Shown: positions 813 to 62,091 of the stretch, one piece after another
Position numbering within the stretch: position 1 is the first letter of the stretch
Layout of the letters: each line of letters opens with the position of its first letter
DNA from: Macrocystis pyrifera
Taxonomy: Eukaryota > Sar > Phaeophyceae > Laminariales > Laminariaceae
DNA length: 64,000 nucleotides
NCBI GenBank assembly: GCA_031763025.1
Contig: JASSKH010000016.1
Coordinates: 3,782,001-3,846,000, forward strand
Direction: 5' to 3'
Made by a program: the position numbers and the translations under genes
The notes under the pieces: model-generated
Databases searched by the model: none
What the model was told of the DNA's origin: nothing
Seen by the model: only the letters and a program-made list of their open reading frames with translations

Positions 813-1214
813 CTATTTTGGAGGGGTCAGGGTGCGAAGTAGGAGCAGGATCGGTGAAAGCGTCGACATGTGAAATTCTCTGGCGGGCTCGTGTCTACAA
901 ATAGATGCTGTCGGCAGCAGCAGCAGCAGCAGTATCCACAGCAGCAGCACACGGGCAACAAATGCGCTTGCCTTGTCGAGCAAGCGCTGCCCCGGGTTTC
1001 CCTCGGCCTTTGCACGGTGGTATTCCTCTGCGGCCTTCCGCGACTCGTTCGCAGAGGACAACAACCAGCGGACGTGCTCGGGGTCTATCCGCGGACAGAC
1101 TCTCGACATGATCCCATCGCGACGCCTCCCCCGGCCTTTTTTTCCTTTACGGCGAGGCATGGGTGCCGAGCTGGGTGCTCTCACGCCCTTCCTTCTTTTA
1201 GGCTCGGCCGTCAC
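813..1214 (-). CDS. Small basic conserved peptide, copy A (exon or gene fragment)
   Basis: The reading frame encodes a Lys/Arg-rich N-terminus followed by 'CPRIDPEHVRWLLSSANESR' and then 'KAEGNPGQRLLDKAS'. A second locus at 47039-47240 on the other strand encodes nearly the same peptide, while the DNA differs at many codon positions. That pattern favours real coding over chance. After the conserved block the frame runs into a CAG-repeat tract (916-950 on the plus strand) that translates as Leu-rich sequence and is probably intron. I do not recognise the family. The conserved core is about 55 residues, predicted soluble and helical. It may be the first exon of a longer gene leaving the window to the left. 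The upstream start is uncertain because two Met codons precede the basic stretch. Confidence 0.45.
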   Translation of the reverse strand: MTAEPKRRKGVRAPSSAPMPRRKGKKGRGRRRDGIMSRVCPRIDPEHVRWLLSSANESRKAAEEYHRAKAEGNPGQRLLDKASAFVARVLLLWILLLLLLPTASICRHEPAREFHMSTLSPILLLLRTLTPPK

Positions 1215-23115: not shown

Positions 23116-25832
23116 TCAACCACCTACGGCTCTGATAGCCGCTGTGTAAGTCGCCATGTCTACCGCCATCCCCTTCGCCCGCATCTGGTCAAGCAGGTCT
23201 AGCGCTTCCCGTTGCCGTCCAGCCTTGGCGCAAGCCGATATCGCGGCATTGTAAGTGATCACGTTGGGTTCCTCCACCCCCCCCCCCCCCCCCCCCTCCC
23301 CGGTACCGCCTGCGCCGCCGACTCCAGCATCTCCTCCAGCAGGTCTAGTGCTGTCCTCCACTGCCCGCCGTTACCGCACGCGGTGATCGCGGCGCTGTAC
23401 GTGATGTTGCCCAGCTCTATCCCCGCCGCCTGCATCTCTCGCAGGAGTTCCAGTGCCTTCTCCCACCGACTCGAGTTGGCGCACGCCGTGATCGCCGTGT
23501 TGTACGATATTGCTTCCAGCGCACCCCCCTGGCTCCGGATCTCCTCGAACACCGCCAGCGCCCTCTCCAACTGATCGCCGTTTCCGAAAGCTCTCATGGC
23601 GGAGTTGTGGGTGATCGCGTTCGGCCTCAGCCCGTCCGCCTGCATCTCCCCCAGCAGCTCCCATGCTCGGTCCGGCTGGCCGTGGTTTCCGCAGGCGGCG
23701 ATGGCGGCGTTGTATGAGACGACGTCGGGCTGCAGGCCTACGGCGCGCATGTCTTCCAGCAGCCCGAGCGCTAGCTCCCACTGCCCCCCCCGGTCGCACG
23801 CTGTGATGGCGGCGCTGTAGGGGAACACTTGCCGAATCCCGGCCGCCCGCGCCTCCCCCAGCAGCTGCAACGCCTTCTCCCACCGCCCCGCGTTGCCGCA
23901 GGCCGTGATAGCCGTGCTGTACGTTACCACGTCGGGAGTGAGGCCTTCCGCCCGCATCGTGGTCAACAGCCCCAACCCCTTCGCCAACTGCCCGGCGTTA
24001 GAGTAGGCCTTGATGGCGGCGTTACAGGTCACCACGTTCGGCATCAGCCCCACCTCGCGCATCTCGTAAAACAGCCGCAGCGCCGCCTCCCAGTTGCCCC
24101 CCCTATCGCAGGCCGTGATCGCGGCGTTGTATGTGACCACGTTCGGCACCACCCCCGCCTCCGTCTGCATGGTCCGCAGCAGCTCCAAGGCCTTCTCCCA
24201 CTGCCCGCCGTTACCGCACGCGCTGATGGCGGCGCTGAACACGAACACATGCGGCACCACCCCTGTCGCCGTGAGGTCTTCCAGCAGGGCTAAGGACTCC
24301 CGCCAGCGCCCGGTGTTCCCGCAGGCAGATATCGCCGCGCTGTAGGCGGGCATGTCCGCGACGATCCCCGCCCTCTTCATGTCCGCCAGCAGCTCCATCG
24401 CCCTCTCCCACTGCCCCCCTCTGTCGCACGCGTTGATGGCCGTCCCGTATGTGATGGTGTTCGGTCTCAGCCCGGCCGCTCGCATGTCGTCAATCAGGCT
24501 CAGGGCCTCCTCCCACCGGCCCGCGTTACCGCAGGCGTTCATCGCGGCGTTGAAGGAAATCACGTTCGGGGCAACCCCGGGGGTCTCCTTCATTTCGCCG
24601 AGAAGTTTCAGGCCCTTCTCCCACTGCCCTCCCTTCCCGCACGCCGTGATGGCGGAGTTAAAGGTGATCGAGTTCGGCACCATCCCCGCCTCCCTCATCT
24701 CGCTCACGAGCCGCAGCGACTCCTCCCACTGGCCGCCGTTCCCGCAAGCTTTGATGGCGGCGCTGTAGGTGATCACGTCCATCTCCACCCCGTCCGCCCG
24801 CATCTGCTTCATGAGCGAGAGGGCCGCTCTCCACTGTCCTCCTCTGTCGCAAGCCGTCATTGCGGTGTTGTAGGTGATCGTGTTCGGCTCCACCAGCCCG
24901 GCGGTCTGGCGCATCTCGCGGAGCAGCTCAAGCGCCTTCATCCACTGCCCTTCCTTGCCGCACGCGGCGATGACAGAGTTGTAGGTGATGACATTCGGGG
25001 TGAGCCCGGCCGCACGCATCTGACTCAGGACTCTCAGGGCCTCGTCCCACCTCCCCCCCCGGTTGCAAGCCGCGATCGTAGCGGCGTAGGTGACCACATC
25101 GAGCACCGCCCCAGCGTCCGCCACAGTTTGGAGCAGTTTCAGCGCCTTCTCCCACTTTCCCCCAGTTGCACAAGCCCTAATCGCGGCCTTGGCGCAGTAT
25201 TCATCCGGAGCTACCCCTGCCGCCTGCATCCTGTCGAGCACGCCCAAGGCCAGTTGCCAGCGCTTGCATCGGGTCAGGTGGACAATGCAAGCGCAGTACA
25301 TGTGGGTCGTGACCAAGCGCTGCTCGTGCTGCTCCCGGTGCTGCTGGTGCCTGGGAACAGAAGCCGCGCACCCCAGGTCCGACGACGACTTATGGGCGTC
25401 TCTCCGCGCCTGCTCCAGCCTAGCGCGACGCTCAGCCTCGTCCAGCTCTCGGAGTACGTCCTGCCAGGCCTCCGGCGGCATGCTCTTGATCCTCTTGACG
25501 AACAACTTCGAGCTTGCGGCGTTGTCCGAAGCGGAAGCATCTCCGCCTCGGGCTTGCCAATCGACAGCGCCCACCGTTCTCGAGGGTGTCGGGTTCGAGC
25601 GGCGGCCGGCTCGGATGTGCGAGATCTGCTTCCGGGCCTCCGCGGCGGCCCTGTCATCATAGGGTATGCTTTCGACCGCCGTCGGGCTGGTAGCGCCGTC
25701 TCTGAGCATCATGGGAGGGGCATTCTTACACGCTGCCTTCAACGTGGTGAGGCAAGCATTCGGCCATCCGTGATGACGACTGCTGCTGTACAGGATTCGG
25801 GCGGTGGAGGCCTGGCTCACGACAAACGCCAT
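23116..25832 (-). CDS. P-type pentatricopeptide repeat protein, organelle-directed
   Basis: PPR proteins bind organellar RNA in a sequence-specific way and act in its processing, stability or translation. From residue ~175 the protein is an almost unbroken row of about 19 repeats of 35-36 residues, typified by 'AITACGNGGQWEKALELL' followed by xEMxxxGxxPNVITYN. There is no E, DYW or SMR domain. The N-terminus ('MAFVVSQASTARILYSSSR') is rich in Ser/Arg and lacks acids for ~40 residues, as in a mitochondrial or plastid transit peptide. The intronless frame of 857 codons runs from ATG at 25832 to about 23259, where a C20 tract (23277-23296 on the plus strand) encodes a Gly run. The next PPR ('VITYNAAISACAKAGRQREA') and a final partial one continue in another frame to 23116, so the tract is off by one or two bases, either in the assembly or in the cell. 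The gene is much richer in GC than its surroundings. Confidence 0.92.
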
Positions 25833-26583
25833 CGCTTCGACGGTGTGCCCACCTATGGTGCGGATGAGGCAGTTGAAAGGCGAGGCATTACGACATCACG
25901 CCCTCAAACCGTCAGCGAAGCCTGCCGTGGTGCTGAGTGCGTCATGATGACGGTGACCCTGCCTGCTGCCTGCTGCTCGAGGTGCGGCGGGATTAGAGAA
26001 ATCGTCGAACTCGGGGAAATATTGTCGGTGTAATTTATACCAATAAAAATCAACCAATAGTCGGTGGAATTTTCACCAATCAGTGAAGTATGAAGATGAA
26101 GAGCTTTGATCTCGTGGGTAATCCCACGAGAGCGCAGAACGCACAAGGCCACTACCGCTTCTGCACAGCCTCGCCAAGAAGGGGAGTGCAACGCTATTGC
26201 TAGCGAGCGAGAGGTGAGCGGAGTCTATCTGGATCTGGTACCCGTTGCAGTTATATTTTCATCTCAAAGTTGACACGCGCTGCCTCGTTTGGCACGGAAG
26301 AAAGACGAACCAGCTCTATTTTCAAATTTCCGTGTCGGGTGTACTCCATACCAGGCAGGTAACTGATAAGATATCATGAGCTCTGCTTGCCTACACAACT
26401 GCTGCAATTTGTTGTTGCGTGTCGAAGCCTGTGCCGAGAGACCCTTGTTCTATTCTCCTGATTGCGTGTGCTCCCAAGATGGCTATAGCCGGCAATCCCG
26501 CGGTGATAGTACGTGACCACAGCTCTGCTGTCGTTCATAGATTGGTATCACGTGTTTTGAGTCGTATTTTCTTCTACAGCAGT

Positions 26584-47038: not shown

Positions 47039-47240
47039 ATGGCACGCCACAGGGGAAAAAATCGCCGGAGGAGGTGGAGCGGTGGCGGGGTTATCTCGAG
47101 ACAGCTCTGTCCGCGGATAGACCCCGAGCACACCCGCTGGGTGCTGGCCTCGGCGGAGGAGTCGCGGAATGCTGAGGAGAAATACCGCCGAGGGAAGGCC
47201 GAGGGTAGCCCGGGGCAGCGCTTGCACGACGAGGCTAGTA
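47039..47240 (+). CDS. Small basic conserved peptide, copy B (likely first exon)
   Basis: Begins 'MARHRGKNRRRRWSGGG', then 'CPRIDPEHTRWVLASAEESR' and 'KAEGSPGQRLHDEAS', matching copy A at 813-1214. The conserved block ends at AGTA/GTACGT, a consensus donor (47240/47241) leaving phase 1. It lies 2.6 kb upstream of the first RdRP-like exon on the same strand. That exon starts in phase 0, so the two cannot be joined directly without another exon. The peptide has no family I recognise. Confidence 0.5.
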
Positions 47241-49839: not shown

Positions 49840-49983
49840 GCCCAGAGGGACGCCGTGGAGATCTTCTTCGGCAACGTCCCCGTGGGGACGACGCCCGGCC
49901 AGCTTGCTCGCTATGTGCGCAGCTTCTTGGAACGCAGAGACTTCAGGGAGGGCGCGACGGAGTCGCCCGTCTTGAAGTGCACG
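49840..49983 (+). CDS. RdRP-like gene, exon a (RRM-like beta1-alpha1)
   Basis: Acceptor CATCATCCCGCGTCAG/GCC after ~100 bp of C/T; donor GTGCACG/GTACGC. It gives 48 codons in frame. The long minus frame 49405-50151 is its shadow. Confidence 0.6.
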
Positions 49984-50681
49984 GTACGCGGCAAGTCGAA
50001 TTCGCTCAAAACTTCGAACAAAACTTACGGCTTTCGTGGTGGTCCGCTCCAGAGAAATATCCGACGCCATACTCAGCGCGAGCCACAGTTTCCGGGGCAG
50101 GAGCCTCCGTCCGCGGCCGGCGAAGCAATCCAGGAGGCAACGCGTGGGCACCTCCCCGGGGTTCGAATGCTGCTCCTTTCAGCTGTGCGCGGAGTGGCCC
50201 CCCGGGGAGCTGACATGTCTGTGGGAGGTGTCCTCGTGTGTGTCGTTTCAGGTAAAGCCCGTGGGAGCTACCGCTGCCGTTTCGCTCCTCAAGCGCGCGC
50301 GGGGGGCGCTGGCATGCTAGCTTTTAGGCGCCATCCGCGGTTGTGCGTGTGTCTAAAAATCCAGAGGGGGGGGGATGGATATGAAACAGCCCCTGGGTAA
50401 GGTCTAAAATAATAAAAACGCCATAGACCATGATGCCTCCATAGGCGTTCTACGAAGGTTTGAAAAAAAAAGAGACACTTGGTGCCGGGGTTTCAACGAT
50501 TTTTACACGGATTCAGCGGAAAATCTGCCGACATGCACAACGAACCCGGGGATGGTGCCGAAAATCCCCGTGTTTGAAAACTTCGCCAATCGAGCTGTAA
50601 ATTTTTAGTGTGCGGTAATGTAATCTTGGGGTGGAGATCACGAATCCGTCGTCAGATTTTGATCCAATTGGTTTTGTTACC

Positions 50682-50715
<34 letters not shown>

Positions 50716-52585
50716 CATCACTTTTACTTTCCAGCCCACTCGTAGAGGAGGTTTTACCCTCGACGATCTTCTGGACAAGCCGTGGTCACAGGTGTCGTCC
50801 CTTCTCCCCCCCCGGTACGTGCCTTGAGTTACAGACCCGTAAAAAGGCTGATACATCAAGTAAATATTTCTTGGTTACCACTATAAATGTACACCGCCCT
50901 CGAGGTGCTATTCTAACCACCAGGTATAAGAGAAAAGAAGCACGACACAAATAAAACGCCTTCTAAACACCGAACACCGGAGCTCGCCTCCCAGCTCAGC
51001 TCACCCAATTTCCGCCCTCGAAGCGTATCCCACAACGCTTTAAGCCTCTGCCTGCTGGCTCTCCACCCACTTCGTTCGAGCCTCTGCGCGGCCGAGTGTT
51101 GCTCCGATCACTGATTTGCAGAGCTCTACTACCCCTAAATCGACCACGTCGAGTCGATTGGCGAGGCGTGCAGAAAGAGGCAACTTCAGCAAATGCGGCT
51201 AAACAAAAAATCGAGGCCTTCTGCAACGTTTGTTGATTGCACACTATTTTAAACGCTGTTTTTTTTACGTTTCAGATCGATCCGCAGCGTCAATTTTTTC
51301 ATGCACTTTTTTTCAGTTGCGAGGGCGAAACACGATCTACCGCGGATGCCGCCACTAGTGTTGGATGTCGTATCGAAGTTTCGATATATCTTATCGAAGT
51401 GTCGATACATCGTATCGAAGTTTCGATATATCGTACCGAATGTAATTTTCTCTGCAATCCCCCGGCATCCCCGTGTGTTTTTTTTGCAGGCACTGAACGA
51501 AAGCTTCGATGTACGTGGTATCAAACATCGAAATCGTACATATCGATTAGCTTTCGTGTTTTATCGGTATCGTATCGAACTCGACTATCGTTTATCGGGG
51601 TATCGTATCGAACTGGATTGTCGTTCATCGGAGTATCGTATCGAACTGGATTTTCGTTATGATCGGTATCTTATCGAACTCGAGTCCGATATCGATACGA
51701 AGCACTATTTACGGGGGACCATACACAGTAACTAGGACCAAATATTGTTAGTAAAAATAGGTAAATATCTAGGTATTTATGTATACCACAGGTCCTATTA
51801 ACTATGGACCCCCGTAATAGCTAGCGTGCGCCCGACGCGAGGCCCGGTGTTTTTTTGTTTGTTTGTTTGTTTGCCCCCTTGTTCGTTTGTCTCCCAAGCA
51901 CCCGCGGACACGTCCTTGTTATCTGTGCGAAAAGACCGTGTGATACACCACGCAACATGTGACGCTAACTATTACGGGGGTCTGTAGTAAATAGGACCAA
52001 ATATTTTCAGTAACAATAGGTAAATGGATATAGGTTTTTAACGTATACCATAGGTCCTACCTACTAACTGTGGACCCCCGTAATACTGTACCGCGGTATA
52101 TAGCAATGTTTTTTTACGCGCGCCGTGATGGTGGTGTATAGCACTTTTTTGGATACGTTGTTTCTGATCGGTCGGGCTCCTCAGCCGTTTTCAGCGCCGC
52201 GCTTGAACAGAAACCAAAATACCATTCCATTTTCAAAATGTTTTGTCTCCACGAGCGGTGTGAGTGAAGTGTCGAAAAGGAGTTATATCATAACCCAATG
52301 TCGTTGGGATAAGCAATTAAAATAAATAAATAGTGTTTTACAATATTTTGCCGTGATATACTCGTACTTGTATGCATAGAGGCTTTGGGGTTGCTCGGCG
52401 GGGTGTGGTTTTGTTTCAGCCTTTCTCACAGACAGTTTTTGAATGGCTTACTGATGACTTCTTTACAGTATAGAGCTCAAGTGAGGAGCCTCAGGAGGCA
52501 AGAGTAGGTGGGCACCCCTCTATGAGGCAAACAGGCGCCGTTTGCTCCATTAATACGTCGGTAGTGGTGGCGGAGGGGCTGGCGG

Positions 52586-52633
<48 letters not shown>

Positions 52634-54124
52634 ACTCATATTTTTGCTTGCCTTAGTCATTTAAACCGTTGACCACGCGTCCCTGTCGAGACTGAGAGGG
52701 GGGGGGGGGGGGGGGGGGGGGGCGTACTCGATCTCATGCATGGCCGTAGTCGTGTGGCCATAGACCCTCGCATCCCTACAGTGCCGGGACGGAGCGCGTC
52801 GGGTTTTCACCGACCAGGCAGACGTTGCTTGCACCAAGCGCGAAGCGCCGTGAGGTGTTCGGCGAGTCGCATGAAAGGTGAGCTGCATCCTACTACTAAT
52901 AGTGCCAAGAGCCGCTTGTGAGGCGGACCTACATATGGATGACAGCGTCAATGAGTTGAATATATTTTCCGGTGTGGCCACGTCCAGAGACAGCAGAGGG
53001 GGCACTATCTAACCGCCTCGTGGGCGCCTTACCATGAACACTACTGTACGTGATACGATCCTTCTCCTGGTGCGGAATAAAGGTTCTCCACCCCGCACGA
53101 ATGATCTATATGCCTCGATCGGGGTGGGGGGGACACAGCCGTAATACATTCCCCGCGGGAGCAATATGTACTAAGAACCAAGTGAAGCTTCACACATTGT
53201 CACCCATCAGCACGAGACACCTTACGGGAAGGTCACAATGTTATCGAGCGCCTACCCGTATGGCGCACATTGTCGCATTCGCGACACCCCCTCTTGAGCC
53301 GAAAATTTCTGGATGAGGCGCATATGCCACGGGGAGAATACAGGTGCAAACGCAGAGCGATGCAACTCTTGCCGCTTCGGCAACGCTCTCTCGTCAAGCA
53401 GCGCAGGGACACAAGAGACCTCAACGCGGACATTGTACAAGAGAACGTATTTTGGAGCAGACCGACCCGCCGCCACCGTCGCCGCCGCCTGTGCTGTGGT
53501 GCCCGCGACCTTACGTGTCTCCGCCCTGGTCGGCTAAGGTCGTTGCCTGTCTCGCCTCAACGCACGGCCCGTCCTCACGCTGGCCCCTGCCCCCAATCTC
53601 CGCCCCCGCCTCCCCACCCTGTGATGTCGGTAGGACTGGTTGCCTCAAGTCGGCGCCCCGCTCGCAACGTTCCACTTCCCACCCCCTCCCTCACCCCCGC
53701 CCCTCCCTTTCGCCTTCCCCCGCCCCTGGCTCCGCAAATCACCCCCTCGATTTTTTGGTATAGGGCGCTCTTGCCTTTAGACCGTGCCCCCACCTCCTAG
53801 TGCCCCCGCCCCACCCCTGCCGCTTCTCTTGCCCGCCCTCCCCGCTCGTTCGGTCTGCCGCGCTAGTGCGCTACGCCGTGACCCCCCCCCCCCCCCTTGT
53901 TTGATCGGTCAGTGTCATAAATTCCCACCTGGGACCCCCATCATAGAATAACAGCCGGGAACGGAAATATGACGGTCCTCGAATCAATCTCTGTACATCG
54001 TCGGCAGTTACATAAAACATCAGACGTATGAGGCAATGGTACGATTATGGCCGACACCCCCCTCGTGTCGGCGCCCCCGCCGCTTCGCTTGTTCGGTGAT
54101 GCCGCGCTCTTGCGTTACGCCGTG

Positions 54125-54160
<36 letters not shown>

Positions 54161-54666
54161 ACGCGGACGGCCCCCGCCCCCACCCCACTCCAAACCCCGT
54201 TGCTTGCTCGGTCTGCCGCGCGTGCTCTTGTGTTGCACCGTGCGCGCCCGGGTGTCCAGATAACGGGGCCCACGTCGTTTGCCTGCCTCATGTTTGAGGA
54301 CGACAATTTCAACAAGTGCCAGGCGGACTTCAAGAGGCGCCACATCGACGGAGAGGTTATACCATACGCCAAGTGCTACCTCTTATCCATTAAATTTTAG
54401 GGAACTTATGAAATATCGATCAAATTGCACGCTGCCCTTCTATTTTACGAGGAGATAGTGGCGCACAGTAGTGCCGGCTATCGGCTATATATACTAGTGC
54501 CGGATAAATAATCGCTTGCCAATACAGATGGGATTACTGTAACCAGTGTGGTAGTGTGGTAGTGTGGTAGTGTGGTAGTGTGTTAGTGTGGTAGTGTTAG
54601 AGGGAGTAGTTACTAATAGTGCCGGTTGCCGCCTTAATAGTGCCGGTACTGCTGCTGCCTGCCGCA

Positions 54667-54698
<32 letters not shown>

Positions 54699-57600
54699 GG
54701 GACCGGCACTATAGAGGGACCGGCACTACTCTATTGTGATAGGGTGACTCTCGCTAGACGAGCTATTGTTTGCGCAGCAGCATATCTGTAACTGCTGTCC
54801 CTCAAGTTGCACGCCTTGCTTGATTTGGAGTACTTGGGAGAATCTTGGAACGTTTTTTTAGCCAACCCGAAAGGGGTCCCCCTATTCTTCGGCTACGTGT
54901 CAATAAGAAACTCTCCCTCGTGATACACTTTAGGACGAAAACATAAGGACGGTTTAGTGTTCCATGTTAATACGTACACGTTCCTTTTATTTCCGCCCAC
55001 AGTGGAATTCATACGTTAGAATAACAAATCCGAGTTGTTTCTTCTTCCTTGCCCCCCCCCCCCGCTCCCCTAGTCCGCCCCCGCCTCCTTCCTCGCGACA
55101 AGAAGCAGATGTCACAACTCATGATATGTGGTTTTGTATGGCTTGTAGACAGGAAGCAAGTGTCACAACTCATGGAAACGTGGTTTGGATGGGTGCTGTA
55201 ATCGATATATAGTGGTAGCACTTTTTTTGCCTTGCCAAGGCAAAACATTTCTGGCTGACGGGGCTCCTCCTTAAGGCAGTGAGCAACCAACCACTATCGG
55301 CTGTTTTTTTTTTTTTTCCAGCAGTTGTCGATGTAAATAAAACCCAGTCTCTGGCATTTGCCCGTCGGGTTGAGCATATACTTATACCTCGTACGAGTCT
55401 GCTCCTAAACATAAGGGAGAATTATATGGTATCTAAATGTCCCATTGTGCCTTATATTTCTGATCAGTGCCTTACATTTTTTTTTTTCCCTTGGGGGGTT
55501 GTTTTTGGTACGATGTAAGGGTTGGGCGGGAGGGGGTTGAAAGTCACCGCTATGTCCCCCAATATTGCAAACGCTTGTGTATAGGTATTAAGTCCAATCG
55601 GCCCTTGTATTTCTGGACAGAGTGATGTGTTTGTAACCCCCTCCAGGACTGCTTTTTTTTCCCGTTTCTGAGACAAATTACTTGGAATTAGGGTTCATGA
55701 CTTGAGTTGTAGTAATATTGATATCAATACCTGGTAGTGTTTATTGCTCAGCTGTCATGAGAGCTCAAGTAGAGGAGCCTCAGGAAAAAAAATGAATGGG
55801 CCACCATTCTACATACCGTGAGCAAAAGCTTGAGCTTTTTTGGGGAGGGAGGCGCGTGCTTCGATAGCCCATTTTTCTTCTAATCGACGGGCTAAGGAAC
55901 TATATACCCGAAGTCCGGATGCACGTTTTCTGGCTCTCGTGGTAAAAACCTGGGCCGCGAGATTTTTTTTTTCGGATTATTAATGTTTTTTCTTTTTTTT
56001 ATCTCAAAATCAAGTTTTGGGCGAAATAAATGCCTACGTATAATTCCTTAAGCTAGGAGTCTTCAGAGAATAAAGTAGGTTCAGCACTACCGTCATAGCG
56101 CGAGTAGTTCGTGTACCACTCTGTCCCGAAATATAGTTTTCGTTTATAGACCTTATTTTTAGGGACATATTGGTATATAGTTCGTGCCGGTCAGGACACC
56201 ATGCGGAGGTAGAGATGACGCACCGTTGTTTTTCAGTCGCATGGGGTTCCTGACTTAAGGAGCTCTGTACTAAAAGAGCTGAGTAATTTTTTACGAAAAA
56301 CGCAGTTGCAACCCGATGGCCTACTGCGGGGGGCCATAGTAAATAGGACCTACGGTACACACAAAAACCTATATATTTCGCTATTTTTACTATTAGGGGG
56401 GTCCATAGTTAACGGGACCAAATATTGTTAATTTTTTACCTAAATATATAGGTTTTTATGTATGCCATAGGTCCTGTTAACTATAGACCCCCGTAATAAC
56501 AACATTTTGGTCCTGTTTACTATGGTCCCCCGCAATGCTGTTGTTCCACGCGTTTTTCCCGTCGCGAGGCCGGTTTATTCGATTTTGGCCACGATTATGT
56601 CCAACCCCGCCTTTCTTTTTAAGATTGCTTCCACGATTAGGAATCATCGTCATCGGTGCGGGGCTCCAAAGTACGCAGCGTGCCCGCGAACGTCTCCCGC
56701 CCTACCCGCGGGTGCTCCCACCGCAGTAAGCAACCTCCGCAGCAGTGTCACCAGCGTATGTTTATAGGGTGAACGAAGAAAAAAGACACATTCGAACCGC
56801 ACCCGTTTTTTTTTTTCCGGCATTCCGACGATTTTGGGGCCAAGGAGCCCCGTCATTCGGAAAAATATACAAGCAAAAAAAAGGTACAGTAGTACCCCTA
56901 TCGTGCCACGCGCCCTGTACTGTCACGGGGGGCCATAGTTAATAGGACCTACGGTACACACAAAAACCTTTCTATTTCCATGTTTTTACTATTCACGGGG
57001 GTCCATAGTTAACAAGACCTATGGTGCACATAAAAACCCATTTATTTGCCTATTTTTACTAACAAAATTTGGTCCCGTTAACTATGGACCCCCCGTAAAT
57101 AACAATAGTTGGTCCTATTTACTATGGTCCCCCGTAATACCGTACAATCAAATGTGTTTGCTTCTTGTTTTTTTTATGGTTTGCATGTAAGTAGACGCGA
57201 CGCAGACACCGTTGTATGCGAGGCGGCTTGTAACTTGTGGTTTCGTAGCACGGTTGGTCGACAGAAAGCAAACACCAACTCATGAGAGATGGATTTTCGT
57301 ATGGTTCTTGTAGTCTGTACACAATAATCAAGCACTTTTTTTTTTTTCTTTTCTTTTTTTCCAAAGTGGGTTGGTTTGTGGACAGGGTCGTCGTTTTTTT
57401 TTTTTTTTTGTTTTTCTCAACCCCCAGGGTTCGGATTTTTTTTCCAAAACATGATCCTTTTTTTTTCCGAGGTCTATGTAGACAGTAGCGGTTGTGTTGT
57501 CTTCGCATCAAACCATTACCTCTACCTAACTACATCACTACACCCAGTGCCCGTCCTGATTACGTTATCCTATAGAGGTAGTGAGAGGGGGGGAGCAATA

Positions 57601-60600
57601 CTAAAACGGAAGCTAAAACGTTAAAAACAACAAAAAAAAAACTCGTTTGTTTTCGGTTCGTTCATACATAAATTCCAATCCGCTTGTTTTTTTTTTTTTT
57701 TTTTTTTTCTTCTTCATTCTGATCCCCCCCTTCTTTTTTTTTGTTTTTTCAAGAATGTGGATGCCGTTTTAGTTTTTTTGTTTGTCTACATATACGTAGT
57801 GTTGGATATCGTATCCTGTCGAAGGTTTCAATATATCGCAATATCAAACTTCCGATTATCATGTCGAACGTGTTTTGCCCCTCCACCCCCTGACATCTCT
57901 CCGTGTTTTTCATGCTCATCTGGACGGAAGCTTCGATATGATCAGATATCGAAATCGTATCGATCACGTTTTTTTGGTATGTAGTCCATGTACCCCCGTC
58001 GCCCAACCCTCTTTTTTTCCGCCGTGAACGGCCAGGTAATGCTTGAGGAGGACAACGAGGGCAAGACGTGGCTGGTGTTCAGGCTTCGGCGCCCTCCTTT
58101 CCTCCAAGGAGAACCGGCCGCCGCTGACCCGGTACGTAATGCCCTACATACGCAGGCGCCGTCCGCCTTGTGAAAAAGGTCTTGCATGCGCACACGCCCG
58201 CATCCTTTCCAAAGAAGAACACGGTGGCAACCAATACTCGTAGATAAGCCAACTGTAGGCACTACGGGGGTCCATAGTTAATAAGACCTATGGTATACAT
58301 AAAAACCTATATATTTACCTATTTTTACTGACAATATTTGGTCCTATTTACTATGGACCCCGGTAATAGGTAGGTACGTACGACGGAAGCGTACCCACGT
58401 TACGATGAAAAAAAAGCACACGACGGTACGGTAGCAGTGCGGATTTTTTGTTTTTGATTTCCGTACGATGCGGGCGCGGTGCGATTTTGAAACCGTACGG
58501 TGGTATTACGGGGGTCCATAGTAAATAGGACGTACGGTACACACAAAAACCTGTATACTTCCCTATTTTTACTGTTGCGGGGGACCATAGTAAACAGGAC
58601 CAAATATTGTTAGTAAAATTACCTAAATATATAGGTTTTTATGTATGCAATAGGTCCTGTTAACTATGGACCCCCGTGATAACAATATTTGGTCCTATTT
58701 ACTATGGTCCCCCGTAAATAGTGTGGTTCGGTAAAACAGCGTTAAACCAAAACCCACCACCGAAGCAAATTTTACTTGATTTTAAAAACCCTAAGGACTG
58801 ACCGCGGTTTCAACCATGTGGAATTCAAACGGTGCGGTTCGGCGCGGGTTTTTTTTGTGTGTTTTGAGGTTACCTACAATGCCGTGCGGTGCGCTGCCGC
58901 GCGGTGCGGTTTTGTCAAAAATAATAAAACCACACGGTGCGGTGCGGTTCGGTAAAAGCGCACCGAAATGAAAAACCGGACCGTGATAAGCGCCGGATAT
59001 GTAATGCGACTCTGTCCCTTATTATAAAGGCCTTTTTTAAGCTAATATTCAATGAAAACGTTTCTCATGTTGAGGGACAAGAGTGCTAACATCGATCGGC
59101 TCTGCGTACCACTATTACGGGGGTCCATAGTAAATAGGACCTACGGTACACACAAAGACCTATATATTTCCCTATTTTTCTAACAGTATTTGATCCTATT
59201 TACTATGGTCCCCCGTAATACAGTACAACACCTGTTTTCACTATTACGGGGGACCATAGGACCTACGGTACACACAAAAACCTATACATTTCCCTATTTT
59301 TTCTAACAATATTTGGTTCTATTTCGTGTGCCCGAAGACGGAAAATAAATAATTGACTCTATTTCCAGTACGAATTAATTACATTGAAATTGGGGTCAAT
59401 TTATTTAATTGTTTTGGTCAGATAGCATTTCCGAATCGAAAAAATAAATAATTAACGAAAGGTTCCTCGAAGATTTTATATACCAGGTACCGGTATTTTT
59501 TTTATAAAATTTGAAATACGTCAGCTGTGAGTTCGACTGATTAAATAGTTGATAACTCAACTTTGCAAGCTGCGTAATACGCCTCGTCTATATTCCATTT
59601 TTACCGAATTTTACAAGTATTGTGATAAACCGAGCTACGTATATATTTGAAACGCAGGGTTTCATGCGGGTCAATACATGCAAAAACCGTTTCGCGAAGC
59701 GAATCCAACAACAGCATGCAAAAGAGTACTGTGATTTGTCATATAAAAGAAGCGGGTGTGAATCAGGCCGTGCGTTGGAGTTATTAATAGTACCAAGATG
59801 CAAGCTTATTTATTACACGCACGTCAAAGAGTCGATATAGAATAATACCAGGTGTTACATACTATTACTGCCGTGCTTGTACGAGAGAGTGAAAAGCGGG
59901 CGAATCCACTACAGCATGCAAAACAGTACTGTAGATTGTCATGTAAATTTACCTTGGTCCCCCGTGATAAAAGAGTATTGTTGGCACTCTCGACAGGACT
60001 CCGAGGAGGCCGTACGCACGCTTCTCCATGGCAGGCTTGTCGTTGGAACGGCTCTAAGGTGTCGATCCGACGCAGTTATGCACGCGGCAGTGCATTGCGT
60101 TCGTTCACTGCCTATTTTTTTTTTTTCTTTTGTCTGCGCACGATCGACGCTCACGCCGCCATCATTTATTTGTACCGCCCGTTTTCGACGACACGTGAAT
60201 ACAGCAGTACTAGTTGTATTGTACCGACGCGCGCTGCGGCAAAGGTATGGCACATTTTCTGCGATTTTTTTTTTTTTTCTGAATGACGGGGCTCCTCAAC
60301 CCAAAATCGTCGGAAATCATATTCTTATTTTTTTTTGCCAAAATGGTTTCTGAAAAGACGAGGCTCCTTATGTATGACCCAAAATCGTCGGAATGTATGT
60401 TTTCTGCTGACATGGTTTCCAAATGACGAGGCTCCTTATATATAAAACCCAAAATCGTCGGAATGCATGTTTTCTGCTTCGATGGTTTCTGAATGACGAG
60501 GCTCCTTAACCCAAAATCATCGGAATGCACATTTTCTGTTGCTGAGTGACGAGGCTTAACTCCGAATCATCGGAATGCATATTATCTGCCAAAATTGTTT

Positions 60601-61435
60601 CTCAACGACGGGGTTCCATAGCCCACAATCGCCAGAATGCCATTCTTGTTTCGCAAAACGACCTTTTTTGTATACATGGGCAATGGGATTATTGATCGGA
60701 TTGCTCTTTTGTTTTTTGGGTGACTTACTGACAGTACTATTGCGGGGACCATAGTAAACAGGACCTACGGTACACAAAAAAAACTGTATACTTACTTACC
60801 TATTGTTTTCTAACAATATTTGGTCGTTGTTTGCTATGGCCCACCGTAATTGTGACGTGCTGCTAGCACTCTGATAATGACTTACGGTTAATAATAGTAC
60901 TAATAATATGATAGTTACTAACTAAGAGTACTATTACGGGGGGGGACCATAGTAAACAGGACCAAATATTGTTAATAAAAATAGATAAATATATAGGTTT
61001 TTTTATGTGTACCATAGGTCCTATTAACTACGGACCCCCGTAACGATGATTTTGCTAGTAGTACCCATGACTTATTACTAGTACAGAGCTCCTCAATCTC
61101 AGAAAACAAATGGTGGCACCTCTCTCGTACCCCTGTACGTAGCATGCGTGTACCGTGTACGTCTACGTGGCACATACAGCTTAAAGTGCATATTTTTCCC
61201 ATTTGGTGAACGAAGCGTTAGGGCAGGTAGTGCTGATTTCGACCAAACTTTTCCGTCATTCATTTGTTTACTTGTTTCTGTGTATTTTTGCGACATGTAT
61301 TTGTTGGCGTTATTATTTGGTCAACCCTTCAAGTGCTACACTTGTACACACGACGCACAAATGAGTCTATTCGCAAGTACTTCGACTCCCCTAACGGGAT
61401 AGCAGCCCTGAAAAGGGGGGGGGGGGGGGGGGCGG

Positions 61436-61475
<40 letters not shown>

Positions 61476-61511
61476 CGGGTGAAAAACCTTCGTGGGCAGG
61501 TTTACGGATTC

Positions 61512-61548
<37 letters not shown>

Positions 61549-62091
61549 CCTTTTGTTTTTGGTTTGGCCATTTTTTGTTTTTTGGTTTTTTTTTTTTCGC
61601 GCTGCTTGTGCTTTTGTTAATAAATGACGTCGCGGTCACGATATTTTCCCACCTCTCGACAGGACACCCCCGACGATACTTCGGGCTTTAAGAATTTTTT
61701 CACAGCAGAATTGACCGGACTTTTACGGGAGTTGGGCGACACCCTCGACACGTGGCAGCTGGGCGAGCTAGAAGACCTGAAGAAGCGCCCCAGGATGGAG
61801 CGCCTCGGGGACTTGTCCCGAAACGGCGCCTTCGGGCGGTGCCTCGTGTACCGCGTGGATGTTTCCGGGCTTTCCCCCCAAGAAATGACTCGGGCGTGCA
61901 AGGAGCTGCACGCGTTCCGCCTCTGCAGATTCGAGAGTCAGGCTAGGCTCATGCGCCGGCCCGTGCCCGTCCACAAGATCAATTCTCGCGCGGCGCTCAA
62001 CGGGTGGGAGGCGACGCACGGGGCCCGAGCCTTGTACCGCGGGCTGTCGTACGAGGTCAAATTTCTGATCGAGGTGTGCTTTCAAGATAGG
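49840..62091 (+). CDS. Eukaryotic RNA-dependent RNA polymerase (RDR family), N-terminal half, multi-exon
   Basis: Cellular RdRPs copy RNA into dsRNA for Dicer in RNA silencing. Five exons are supported: 49840-49983, 50183-50251, 54260-54319, 58036-58131 and 61663-62091. A sixth (56624-56725) is possible. All begin after a CAG or AAG with a pyrimidine tract and end before GT, and all are in phase 0. Exons 1-3 form an RRM-like N-terminal domain ('IFFGNVPVGTTPGQLARY', then 'TSFACLMFEDDNFNKC'). The 58-kb exon has 'LVFRLRRPPFLQGE', matching the family's L-x-L-R-x-P-P-x-I. The last has 'AFGRCLVYRVDVSGL' and 'SYEVKFLIEVCFQD', matching the G-R-x-x-V-Y-R and F-E-V-L-F-x-x-N-x-L-V stretches before the catalytic double-psi barrel. 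The catalytic DxDGD lies beyond the window. Introns are 199 bp to 4.0 kb and full of MITEs. The true start is not seen. Family assignment is from motif memory, not a search. Confidence 0.6.
50183..50251 (+). CDS. RdRP-like gene, exon b
   Basis: Acceptor TGCTGCTCCTTTCAG/CTG and donor TTTCAG/GTAAAG. It gives 23 codons ('LCAEWPPGELTCLWEVSSCV'). Confidence 0.6.
50684..50826 (-). mobile_element. SINE-1 copy, 5'-truncated, minus strand
   Basis: A T33 run (the A tail) followed by CATCACTTTTACTTTCCAGC and the complement of the last ~110 bp of the body. It lies antisense inside an RdRP-like intron. Confidence 0.75.
50900..51250. other. Intronic stretch, nothing recognised
   Basis: GC-moderate, no frame with family resemblance, no repeat matched elsewhere in the window. 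Confidence 0.35.
51353..51705. mobile_element. MITE-2 copy, fullest
   Basis: AGTGTTGGATGTCGTATCGA at the left and ATATCGATACGAAGCACT at the right are imperfect inverted ends. The inside is dominated by TATCGAA/TTCGATA words. Confidence 0.65.
51706..51819. mobile_element. MITE-1 copy abutting MITE-2
   Basis: TATTTACGGGGGACCATA, extra ACACAG near the left end, intact right end. Confidence 0.85.
51970..52085. mobile_element. MITE-1 copy
   Basis: Complete with small core insertions. Confidence 0.85.
52138..52514. mobile_element. MITE-4 copy
   Basis: ATAGCACTTTTTTGG at the left, GGAGGCAAGAGTAGGTGGGC at the right; GGGCTCCTCAG and GAGGAGCCTCAG inside. Confidence 0.55.
52587..53000 (-). mobile_element. 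LINE tail joined to a related retroposon end (minus strand)
   Basis: On the sense (minus) strand: a ~275-bp retroposon body (52723-53000), C25 (52698-52722), a ~65-bp LINE 3' end (52633-52697, with complement of GACTAAGGCAAGC) and a C46 tail (52587-52632). The LINE end thus sits at the tail of the other element. Confidence 0.65.
53001..53800. other. Intronic stretch, nothing firmly recognised
   Basis: Open plus frames at 53270-53800 are long because the sequence is C-rich; I see no splice-bounded exon. Confidence 0.35.
53815..54258. repeat. C-rich repeat with poly-C tracts upstream of an exon
   Basis: A unit CGCTTCGCTTGTTCGGT-like, GCCGCGCTCTTG and CGCCGTGAC(C)n occurs three times (53820-53896, 54070-54158, 54195-54245). 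The C-runs are 16 and 33 long. Exon c follows 14 bp later. Confidence 0.6.
54260..54319 (+). CDS. RdRP-like gene, exon c (RRM-like beta3-alpha2); 3' limit uncertain
   Basis: Acceptor GGGTGTCCAG/ATA. The frame 'ITGPTSFACLMFEDDNFNKC' runs on as 'QADFKRRHIDGEVIPYAKCY' to a TAG at 54398-54400. The only phase-0 donor I see is GGAGAG/GTTATA at 54355/54356, so the exon probably extends to 54355; the end given here marks only the firmest part. Confidence 0.5.
54541..54598. repeat. (GTAGTGTG)n microsatellite; (CATA)n at 54663-54697
   Basis: Seven GTAGTGTG-type units, then nine CATA units 65 bp on. Confidence 0.85.
55213..55806. mobile_element. MITE-4 copy, enlarged, with a MITE-6 and MITE-3 remnant inside
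   Basis: GGTAGCACTTTTTTTGCC and TGACGGGGCTCCTCC at the left; GAGGAGCCTCAGG at the right. A MITE-6 (55545-55628) and half a MITE-3 (55636-55690) account for the extra length. Confidence 0.45.
56115..56174. mobile_element. MITE-6 copy, short
   Basis: ACCACTCTGTCCCGAAATAT ... AGGGACATATTGGT. Confidence 0.5.
56322..56536. mobile_element. MITE-1 carrying a nested MITE-1 (inner 56391-56498)
   Basis: The outer copy is interrupted at TTTTTAC-TA-ACAACATTT. The inner copy is complete and inverted relative to the outer, with TA on each side. Confidence 0.85.
56624..56725 (+). CDS. Possible extra RdRP-like exon
   Basis: Acceptor CCCGCCTTTCTTTTTAAG/ATT and donor CACCGCA/GTAAGC enclose 34 codons, phase 0 at both sides like the confirmed exons. 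The peptide (His/Arg/Pro-rich) has no visible family match, so this rests on splice signals alone. Confidence 0.3.
56922..57139. mobile_element. MITE-1 carrying a nested MITE-1 (inner 56990-57102)
   Basis: Interrupted at the same internal TA as the 56322 and 58504 pairs; here the inner copy lies in the same orientation as the outer. Confidence 0.85.
57340..57730. repeat. T-rich intronic tracts
   Basis: Several T-runs of 10-23 bases with TTTTC interruptions; nothing coding. Confidence 0.7.
57798..57968. mobile_element. MITE-2 copy, short
   Basis: AGTGTTGGATATCGTATC at the left, GAAATCGTATCGATCACG at the right; it also shares GACATCTCTCCGTGTTTTTC with the 51-kb copy. Confidence 0.5.
58036..58131 (+). 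CDS. RdRP-like gene, exon d
   Basis: Acceptor after CTCTTTTTTTCCGCCGTGAA and GGCCAG; donor GACCCG/GTACGT. It gives 32 codons with the R-P-P motif. Confidence 0.6.
58262..58368. mobile_element. MITE-1 copy
   Basis: Complete; right end CCCCGGTAATA. Confidence 0.85.
58504..58721. mobile_element. MITE-1 carrying a nested MITE-1 (inner 58573-58681)
   Basis: The third nest at the same internal position, with the inner copy inverted. The left target dinucleotide is now TG. Confidence 0.85.
58740..59005. repeat. Low-complexity GGTGCGGTTCGG stretch
   Basis: GTGCGGT words recur (CGGTGCGGTTCGG, GCGCGGTGCGG, CGGTGCGGTGCGG), with inverted CCGCAC-type matches absent; nothing coding. Confidence 0.4.
59006..59095. 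mobile_element. MITE-6 copy, diverged
   Basis: GCGACTCTGTCCC ... GAGGGACAAGAGTGC. Confidence 0.45.
59113..59220. mobile_element. MITE-1 copy
   Basis: Complete. Confidence 0.85.
59242..59326. mobile_element. MITE-1 copy, right end lost
   Basis: TATTACGGGGGACCATAGG, lacking the AATA stretch, stops at GGTTCTATTT. Confidence 0.75.
59330..60240. other. AT-rich intronic stretch with a small local duplication
   Basis: GCATGCAAAA-AGTACTGT-ATTTGTCAT occurs at about 59714-59745 and 59912-59943. A stray MITE-1 end lies at 59953-59968. Frames at 59852-60353 are not supported as genes. Confidence 0.4.
60248..60700. mobile_element. MITE-4 with its end module amplified in tandem
   Basis: The ~60-70 bp end module (TTTCTGAATGACGAGGCTCC, TTAACCCAAAATCGTCGGAA, TGCATnTTTTCTGC) is repeated about six times. 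The right flank TTTTTTGTATACATGGGC and GGGATTATTGATCGG matches the 41.86-kb copy. Confidence 0.6.
60738..60850. mobile_element. MITE-1 copy
   Basis: TATTGCGGGGACCATAG ... GCCCACCGTAAT; both ends slightly worn. Confidence 0.75.
60932..61044. mobile_element. MITE-1 copy
   Basis: TATTACGGGGGGGGACCATA ... CGGACCCCCGTAA. Confidence 0.85.
61415..61475. repeat. Poly-G tract, ~61 bp
   Basis: Broken only by two C. A (GTT)n microsatellite follows at 61512-61548. Both lie in the intron before exon e. Confidence 0.9.
61663..62091 (+). CDS. RdRP-like gene, exon e (143 codons)
   Basis: Acceptor TTTTCCCACCTCTCGACAG/GAC; the frame stays open to GATAGG/GTGTAG, where the intronic donor supplies the apparent stop. 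It is rich in GC against an AT-rich, T-tract flank. No following exon was found before 64000. Confidence 0.6.

Follow-up and report, generated by a model that had tools for sequence, protein, structure and literature searches.

What gene, if any, is formed by a series of short open blocks on the plus strand of a repeat-filled region in the genome of the giant kelp Macrocystis pyrifera, and is that gene single and complete? The blocks lie in a stretch of 64,000 nucleotides (the window) that corresponds to positions 3782001-3846000 of contig JASSKH010000016.1 (C196 in the coordinates below), in an assembly of 537,376,219 bases and 223 contigs. A first-pass annotation had joined them, between window positions 49840 and 62091, into one gene for a cellular RNA-dependent RNA polymerase (RDR). 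Judged from the sequence, these exons make up the 5' half of a genuine cellular RDR gene on the plus strand, here called gene B, whose RdRP domain is located to the right of the window. Gene B is a member of an already known gene family; the new elements are its greater extent and the presence of a second copy, gene A, lying on the minus strand and head to head with it. The two genes very probably arose by an inverted duplication, the window holding the 5' half of B and the first exon of A.

Gene B and its RdRP domain

A six-frame search of the whole genome (537 Mb) with the Pfam RdRP family (PF05183) gave just two matches, one on each side of the window: C196:3861693-3861854 on the plus strand, in gene B (profile 89-145, E 3.3e-5, 30.5 bits), and C196:3768313-3768600 on the minus strand, in gene A (profile 449-544, E 3e-18, 73.6 bits). 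No further RDR locus was found in the 537 Mb. A finer Pfam scan of the plus strand of the right flank recovered profile positions 51-79, 89-149 and 159-176 in this order, the first and last of them weak singly (E 0.077 and 0.095), and an additional exon of gene B (...DEDVPSAFQ) terminates 51 bases ahead of a scaffold gap of 100 N. When joined, the right-flank exons of B match PF05183 over profile 57-193 (E 7.2e-24, 84.8 bits) and the C-terminal exons of A over profile 481-581 (E 1.1e-26, 94.1 bits), placing both genes above the family cut-off of 23.8 bits. The Pfam scans covered loci L003-L005 on the plus strand, and L012:3301-9932 and L011:1-3332 on the minus strand; L006 was partly screened by codon score and L007-L010 by motif scan only. 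The succession of N-terminal region, RdRP domain and C-terminal landmarks is colinear in B, and in A without the core; beyond the Pfam positions, we take PDFM... and SAWY...SFPWV to be the landmarks of the C-terminal part.

Gene B extends from an ATG at window position 47039 to ...SFPWV at C196:3876931, i.e. over about 48 kb, in which 16 exon blocks were found. The first-pass annotation was thus right about the kind of gene, while its length of more than 12 kb was too short and it had overlooked a 5' exon, running from window position 47039 to about 47236, that carries the probable start codon. It had also reasoned that the lack of an RdRP domain on the plus strand within the next 20-30 kb would refute the gene; the domain starts roughly 11 kb to the right of the window. 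That the exons belong to one RDR gene is borne out by these same-strand, in-order PF05183 exons and by the repetition of the order in the paralogue. The exons in the window are the following:

47039..47236, plus strand: 5' exon of gene B with the likely start codon, MARHRGKN...SRQLCPRIDPEHTRW...; 3' border uncertain
49840..50251, plus strand: RRM-like exon of gene B, VEIFFGNV...CLWEVSSCVSFQ; one block with AG/GT borders and a frame break near 50028
54260..54355, plus strand: exon of gene B, ITGPTSFACLMF...HIDGE; AG/GT borders, phase 0
58036..58131, plus strand: exon of gene B with the R-x-P-P motif, WLVFRLRRPPFLQ; AG/GT borders, phase 0
61663..62073, plus strand: exon of gene B with GRCLVYR... 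and YEVKFLIE; AG/GT borders
972..1160, minus strand: 5' exon of gene A with a likely start codon, MPRRKGKK...SRVCPRIDPEHVRW...; 3' border uncertain; pairs with the 5' exon of gene B

The four AG/GT-bordered open blocks from 49840 onward had been noticed before, with borders, one motif and an extent that needed correction. The RRM-like exon does not end at 49983, its homologous frame running to 50251 past the one-base break near 50028, and its 412 nucleotides are not a multiple of 3. The label "RRM-like" was given by eye, because no Pfam RRM match was obtained for this exon. Two of the proposed motifs are present as described (RRPP in the 58036 exon, GRCLVYR in the 61663 exon), and the third, given as F-E-V-x-F, actually reads Y-E-V-K-F. 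For the 61663 exon, an end at 62073 is most likely, in place of 62091, since this border gives a good join to the exon that follows (SLVSNLKV...).

All four window exon blocks have a counterpart in the minus-strand gene, and are therefore not due to chance. In blastp comparisons of open reading frames (ORFs), the second part of the RRM-like exon shares 51.7% identity with gene A over 89 amino acids (E 5e-23; the whole counterpart lies at about C196:3781070-3780673), the 54260-54355 exon 72.7% over 33 (E 8e-17) and the 61663 exon 65% over 112 (E 1.1e-47); the 58036 exon pairs with gene A at E 1.8e-12. The same holds for the 5' exon (65.5% identity over 58 amino acids, E 1.4e-22), which has no Pfam match up to E 1. 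Searched genome-wide, the 61663 exon gave four matches, namely the two RDR loci and two others at E 0.43 and 4.9. Its AlphaFold model, built from an input of two sequences, was unusable (mean pLDDT 40.6). The gene pair is presumably transcribed, and spliced as drawn here.

A second copy in mirrored order

Gene A extends on the minus strand from the ATG at window position 1160 to ...SFPWV at C196:3759990, about 23 kb with 13 exon blocks found; apart from its 5' exon, it is located to the left of the window, down to C196:3759990. The exons of A and B pair in mirrored order, as seen both by blastp of ORFs between the plus-strand and minus-strand regions and by DNA comparison. There are 12 such pairs: the 5', RRM, 54260, 58036 and 61663 exons, two more ahead of the RdRP domain, and five beyond the scaffold gap. 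The blastp comparison gave 629 rows, from which ORFs with more than 3 matches were removed as repeats and the colinear rows were picked by hand from a repeat-rich remainder. The pair at C196:3875250 is missing from these rows and comes from a codon-score screen and the DNA comparison, and the pair at C196:3846449 appeared there in another frame, its proper frame being established from separate readings.

Over the 12 exon pairs (485 codons), amino acid identity between A and B is 69%, with a synonymous divergence (dS) of 0.58 and a nonsynonymous divergence (dN) of 0.22. The resulting dN/dS of 0.37 (bootstrap 0.29-0.49) indicates net constraint since the duplication on the two copies taken together. 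The sequenced DNA came from a haploid female gametophyte, according to the available part of the genome description (PMC10498591), so that A and B are not alleles. Their 5' ends are about 46 kb apart, and an ORF of 878 residues coding for a pentatricopeptide-repeat protein lies between them (window 23262-25895, minus strand; PPR_2 E 7.9e-122); a shared promoter is therefore not implied. The only Pfam match of the 5' exon of gene A is a sub-threshold one to AtTam9 (E 0.011).

The introns of gene B are rich in miniature inverted-repeat transposable elements (MITEs), as the first-pass annotation had stated. A terminal inverted repeat pattern (up to 4 edits, without a shuffled control) found 59 ends in the window, of which 21 fall in 49840-62091; the 21 ends correspond to about ten elements of one MITE family, and with other families included the annotated count of more than a dozen is plausible. 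An intron of gene B also carries four GTATCGTATCGAACT-like units with a spacing of about 33 bases (window 51566-51680). The exon-like block at 50736-50790 on the plus strand (GFTLDDLLDKPWSQ) was rejected as an exon of gene B and is a dispersed repeat, with 9 copies on both strands of the 204 kb that include the window (window 50746, 2933, 9559, 10856, 26799 and 41487, and three to the left of the window). The 8 others differ by up to 6 edits, and three minus-strand copies were seen translated; by mimicking a short exon with splice-like borders, this repeat is a trap for gene finding. C/G homopolymers of up to 118 bases occur at C196:3847954-3848071 and in many other places, some of them adjoining a repeated element that contains CGTAGTCGTATGACCATAGACCC (7 window copies by pattern). 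Minus-strand ORFs of 1182, 453, 327 and 380 amino acids at C196:3884370-3894020 presumably represent a long terminal repeat retrotransposon polyprotein, and coding-like blocks on the minus strand at C196:3744322-3747305, detected by codon score, presumably a KRR1-type ribosome-assembly factor, both assignments being made by eye.

The missing active-site exons and the state of the two genes

Several observations weigh against the reading of the two loci as duplicated RDR genes. The window exons alone have no Pfam match above cut-off; the 61663 exon weakly matches PF24577 RDR6_2nd (E 0.014, 15.5 bits, cut-off 27.5), a family without any match in the exons of gene A. Among solved structures, a joined query of 358 amino acids from the window exons hit no RDR at E values up to 10. 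The gene A exons that precede its RdRP part, when joined, had no Pfam match within the same limit of E 10. The exons joined for the PF05183 query were picked by hand by motif and splice border, which flatters the E-value. The reading frame is broken once in B and twice in A in the stretches read: in B within the RRM-like exon, in A within the RRM exon and within a T run in one C-terminal exon. Finally, the assembly did not show, for A or for B, the active-site exons that would cover PF05183 profile about 194-448 and carry DxDGD.

In gene B, the expected position of the core, which the first-pass annotation had hoped to reach by extending rightward to the DxDGD motif, coincides with the 100-N scaffold gap (C196:3867954-3868053), with the ...SAFQ exon before it and the LPDFMRK... 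exon after it, and the active-site exons presumably lie inside this gap. In gene A, the corresponding position consists of about 4 kb, mostly repeats, between an exon ending at C196:3772601 and an exon starting at 3768501, and no exons resembling profile 51-193 of B, nor anything to about 449, were found. Against the assembly, a typed core query of 67 residues gave a single match (E 0.745, locus L017), which proved on reading to be noise; as a control, a query taken from the following conserved segment recovers gene A at E 4.1e-17. A degenerate DxDGD pattern had 67 matches in the assembly versus 89 for the reversed control (54 of the 67 read by eye, none in an RDR context), and its I/M variant 9 versus 16 (all 9 read, none in an RDR context); an intron within the motif would hide it from these searches. 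Two core motif scans, one of both strands of the 204 kb and the other of C196:3846000-3880000 (plus) and 3758000-3784000 (minus), likewise showed nothing in an RDR context by eye.

The one-base breaks may be real or may be consensus errors, the latter because the long-read Canu assembly appears, from the available part of PMC10498591, to have been polished with Racon only. The ORFs of 878 and 1182 residues are unbroken within the same 204 kb, so that such errors are not everywhere.

These data bear on several other explanations. If both copies were decaying pseudogenes, the core of A being deleted and the frames of both being broken, the kelp would be left with no working RDR of this type; the frames broken in the two RRM exons and in the T run of A, the absence of core exons between C196:3772601 and 3768501, and the lack of a DxDGD exon in the assembly would all fit. 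We consider it unlikely, given the bootstrap upper bound of 0.49 on dN/dS, the open frames and usable borders of most of the exon blocks read, the possible origin of the breaks in consensus errors, and the coincidence of the core of B with a gap. A refinement of the inverted duplication, in which B works and A is dead or lacks the core, appears to us evenly balanced: the failure to find in A anything like profile 51-193 or up to about 449, and its two frame breaks against one in B, speak for it, whereas the homology-free 4 kb might stem from repeats wrongly joined in the assembly and A retains open, well conserved C-terminal exons. It is rather improbable that roles are split, one copy being permanently core-less yet selected as a non-catalytic RDR-like protein, or that both are so, with silencing then proceeding without this type of RDR.

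A single gene, split by an inversion or a mis-oriented contig, might be suspected from the two genome-wide RdRP matches, which correspond to an early and a late part of the domain and lie on opposite strands. It is very improbable, as no N run separates the two matches, and is refuted by the 12 exon pairs present in both copies at 69% amino acid identity. The region is filled with repeats and one exon-like block proved to be such a repeat, as would be expected if the window exons were a chance series of ORFs; this explanation is scarcely credible and is refuted by the mirrored, constrained paralogous exons and the in-order RdRP domain. A head-to-head pair of RDR genes produced by inverted duplication remains our preferred explanation.

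Relatives and possible role of the kelp RDR pair

The exon of gene A EITDFCVNYLVNDNLG...HADQ...AVDF matches solved RDR chains at E 4e-17 to 7e-17, namely 7eu0 and 7roz (RNA-dependent RNA polymerase 2) and 7w82 and 7w84 (RNA-dependent RNA polymerase), all of which we take to be plant enzymes. Unlike plant RDR2, kelp gene B is spread over about 48 kb with introns filled by transposable elements, its core is unassembled, and its N-terminal part has no sequence match. The chains 2j7n and 5fsw, presumably Neurospora QDE-1, belong to the same superfamily and were matched by the typed core query, but the gene A exon, searched up to E 1, did not match them.

In the portion of PMC4513859 available, two RDR homologues are listed for Ectocarpus, Esi0100_0017 (best Arabidopsis hit RDR6, 4E-88) and Esi0512_0001 (best hit RDR1, 4E-30), which are likewise cellular RDRs of a brown alga; the kelp window exon has its weak, sub-threshold match to RDR6_2nd. 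The dS of only 0.58 suggests that the kelp pair is younger than an RDR1/RDR6 split. The available text of a Fucus study reports that no RDR was identified, possibly owing to expression too low to detect (PMC6085071). Within the partial texts at hand, the Ectocarpus table (PMC4513859) and this Fucus remark (PMC6085071) were the only direct mentions of kelp or brown-algal RDRs that were found.

The inverted duplication leading to the two head-to-head genes would have occurred in giant kelp or its recent ancestors. The function of RDRs is established for plants and fungi. By analogy, a working kelp RDR would convert single-stranded RNA into double-stranded RNA, from which Dicer would cut the small RNAs to be loaded onto Argonaute. 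The same genome harbors Argonaute exons, seen as five Piwi-domain matches that follow one another in order at a single locus (one with an internal TGA), and one RNase III-domain match, from Dicer or not; the partners of an RDR thus seem to be present. To judge whether the kelp RDR works would take a portion of the gene that this reference assembly lacks. With a duplicated, possibly partly broken RDR pair located in giant kelp, the amplification of silencing RNAs in this organism becomes testable.

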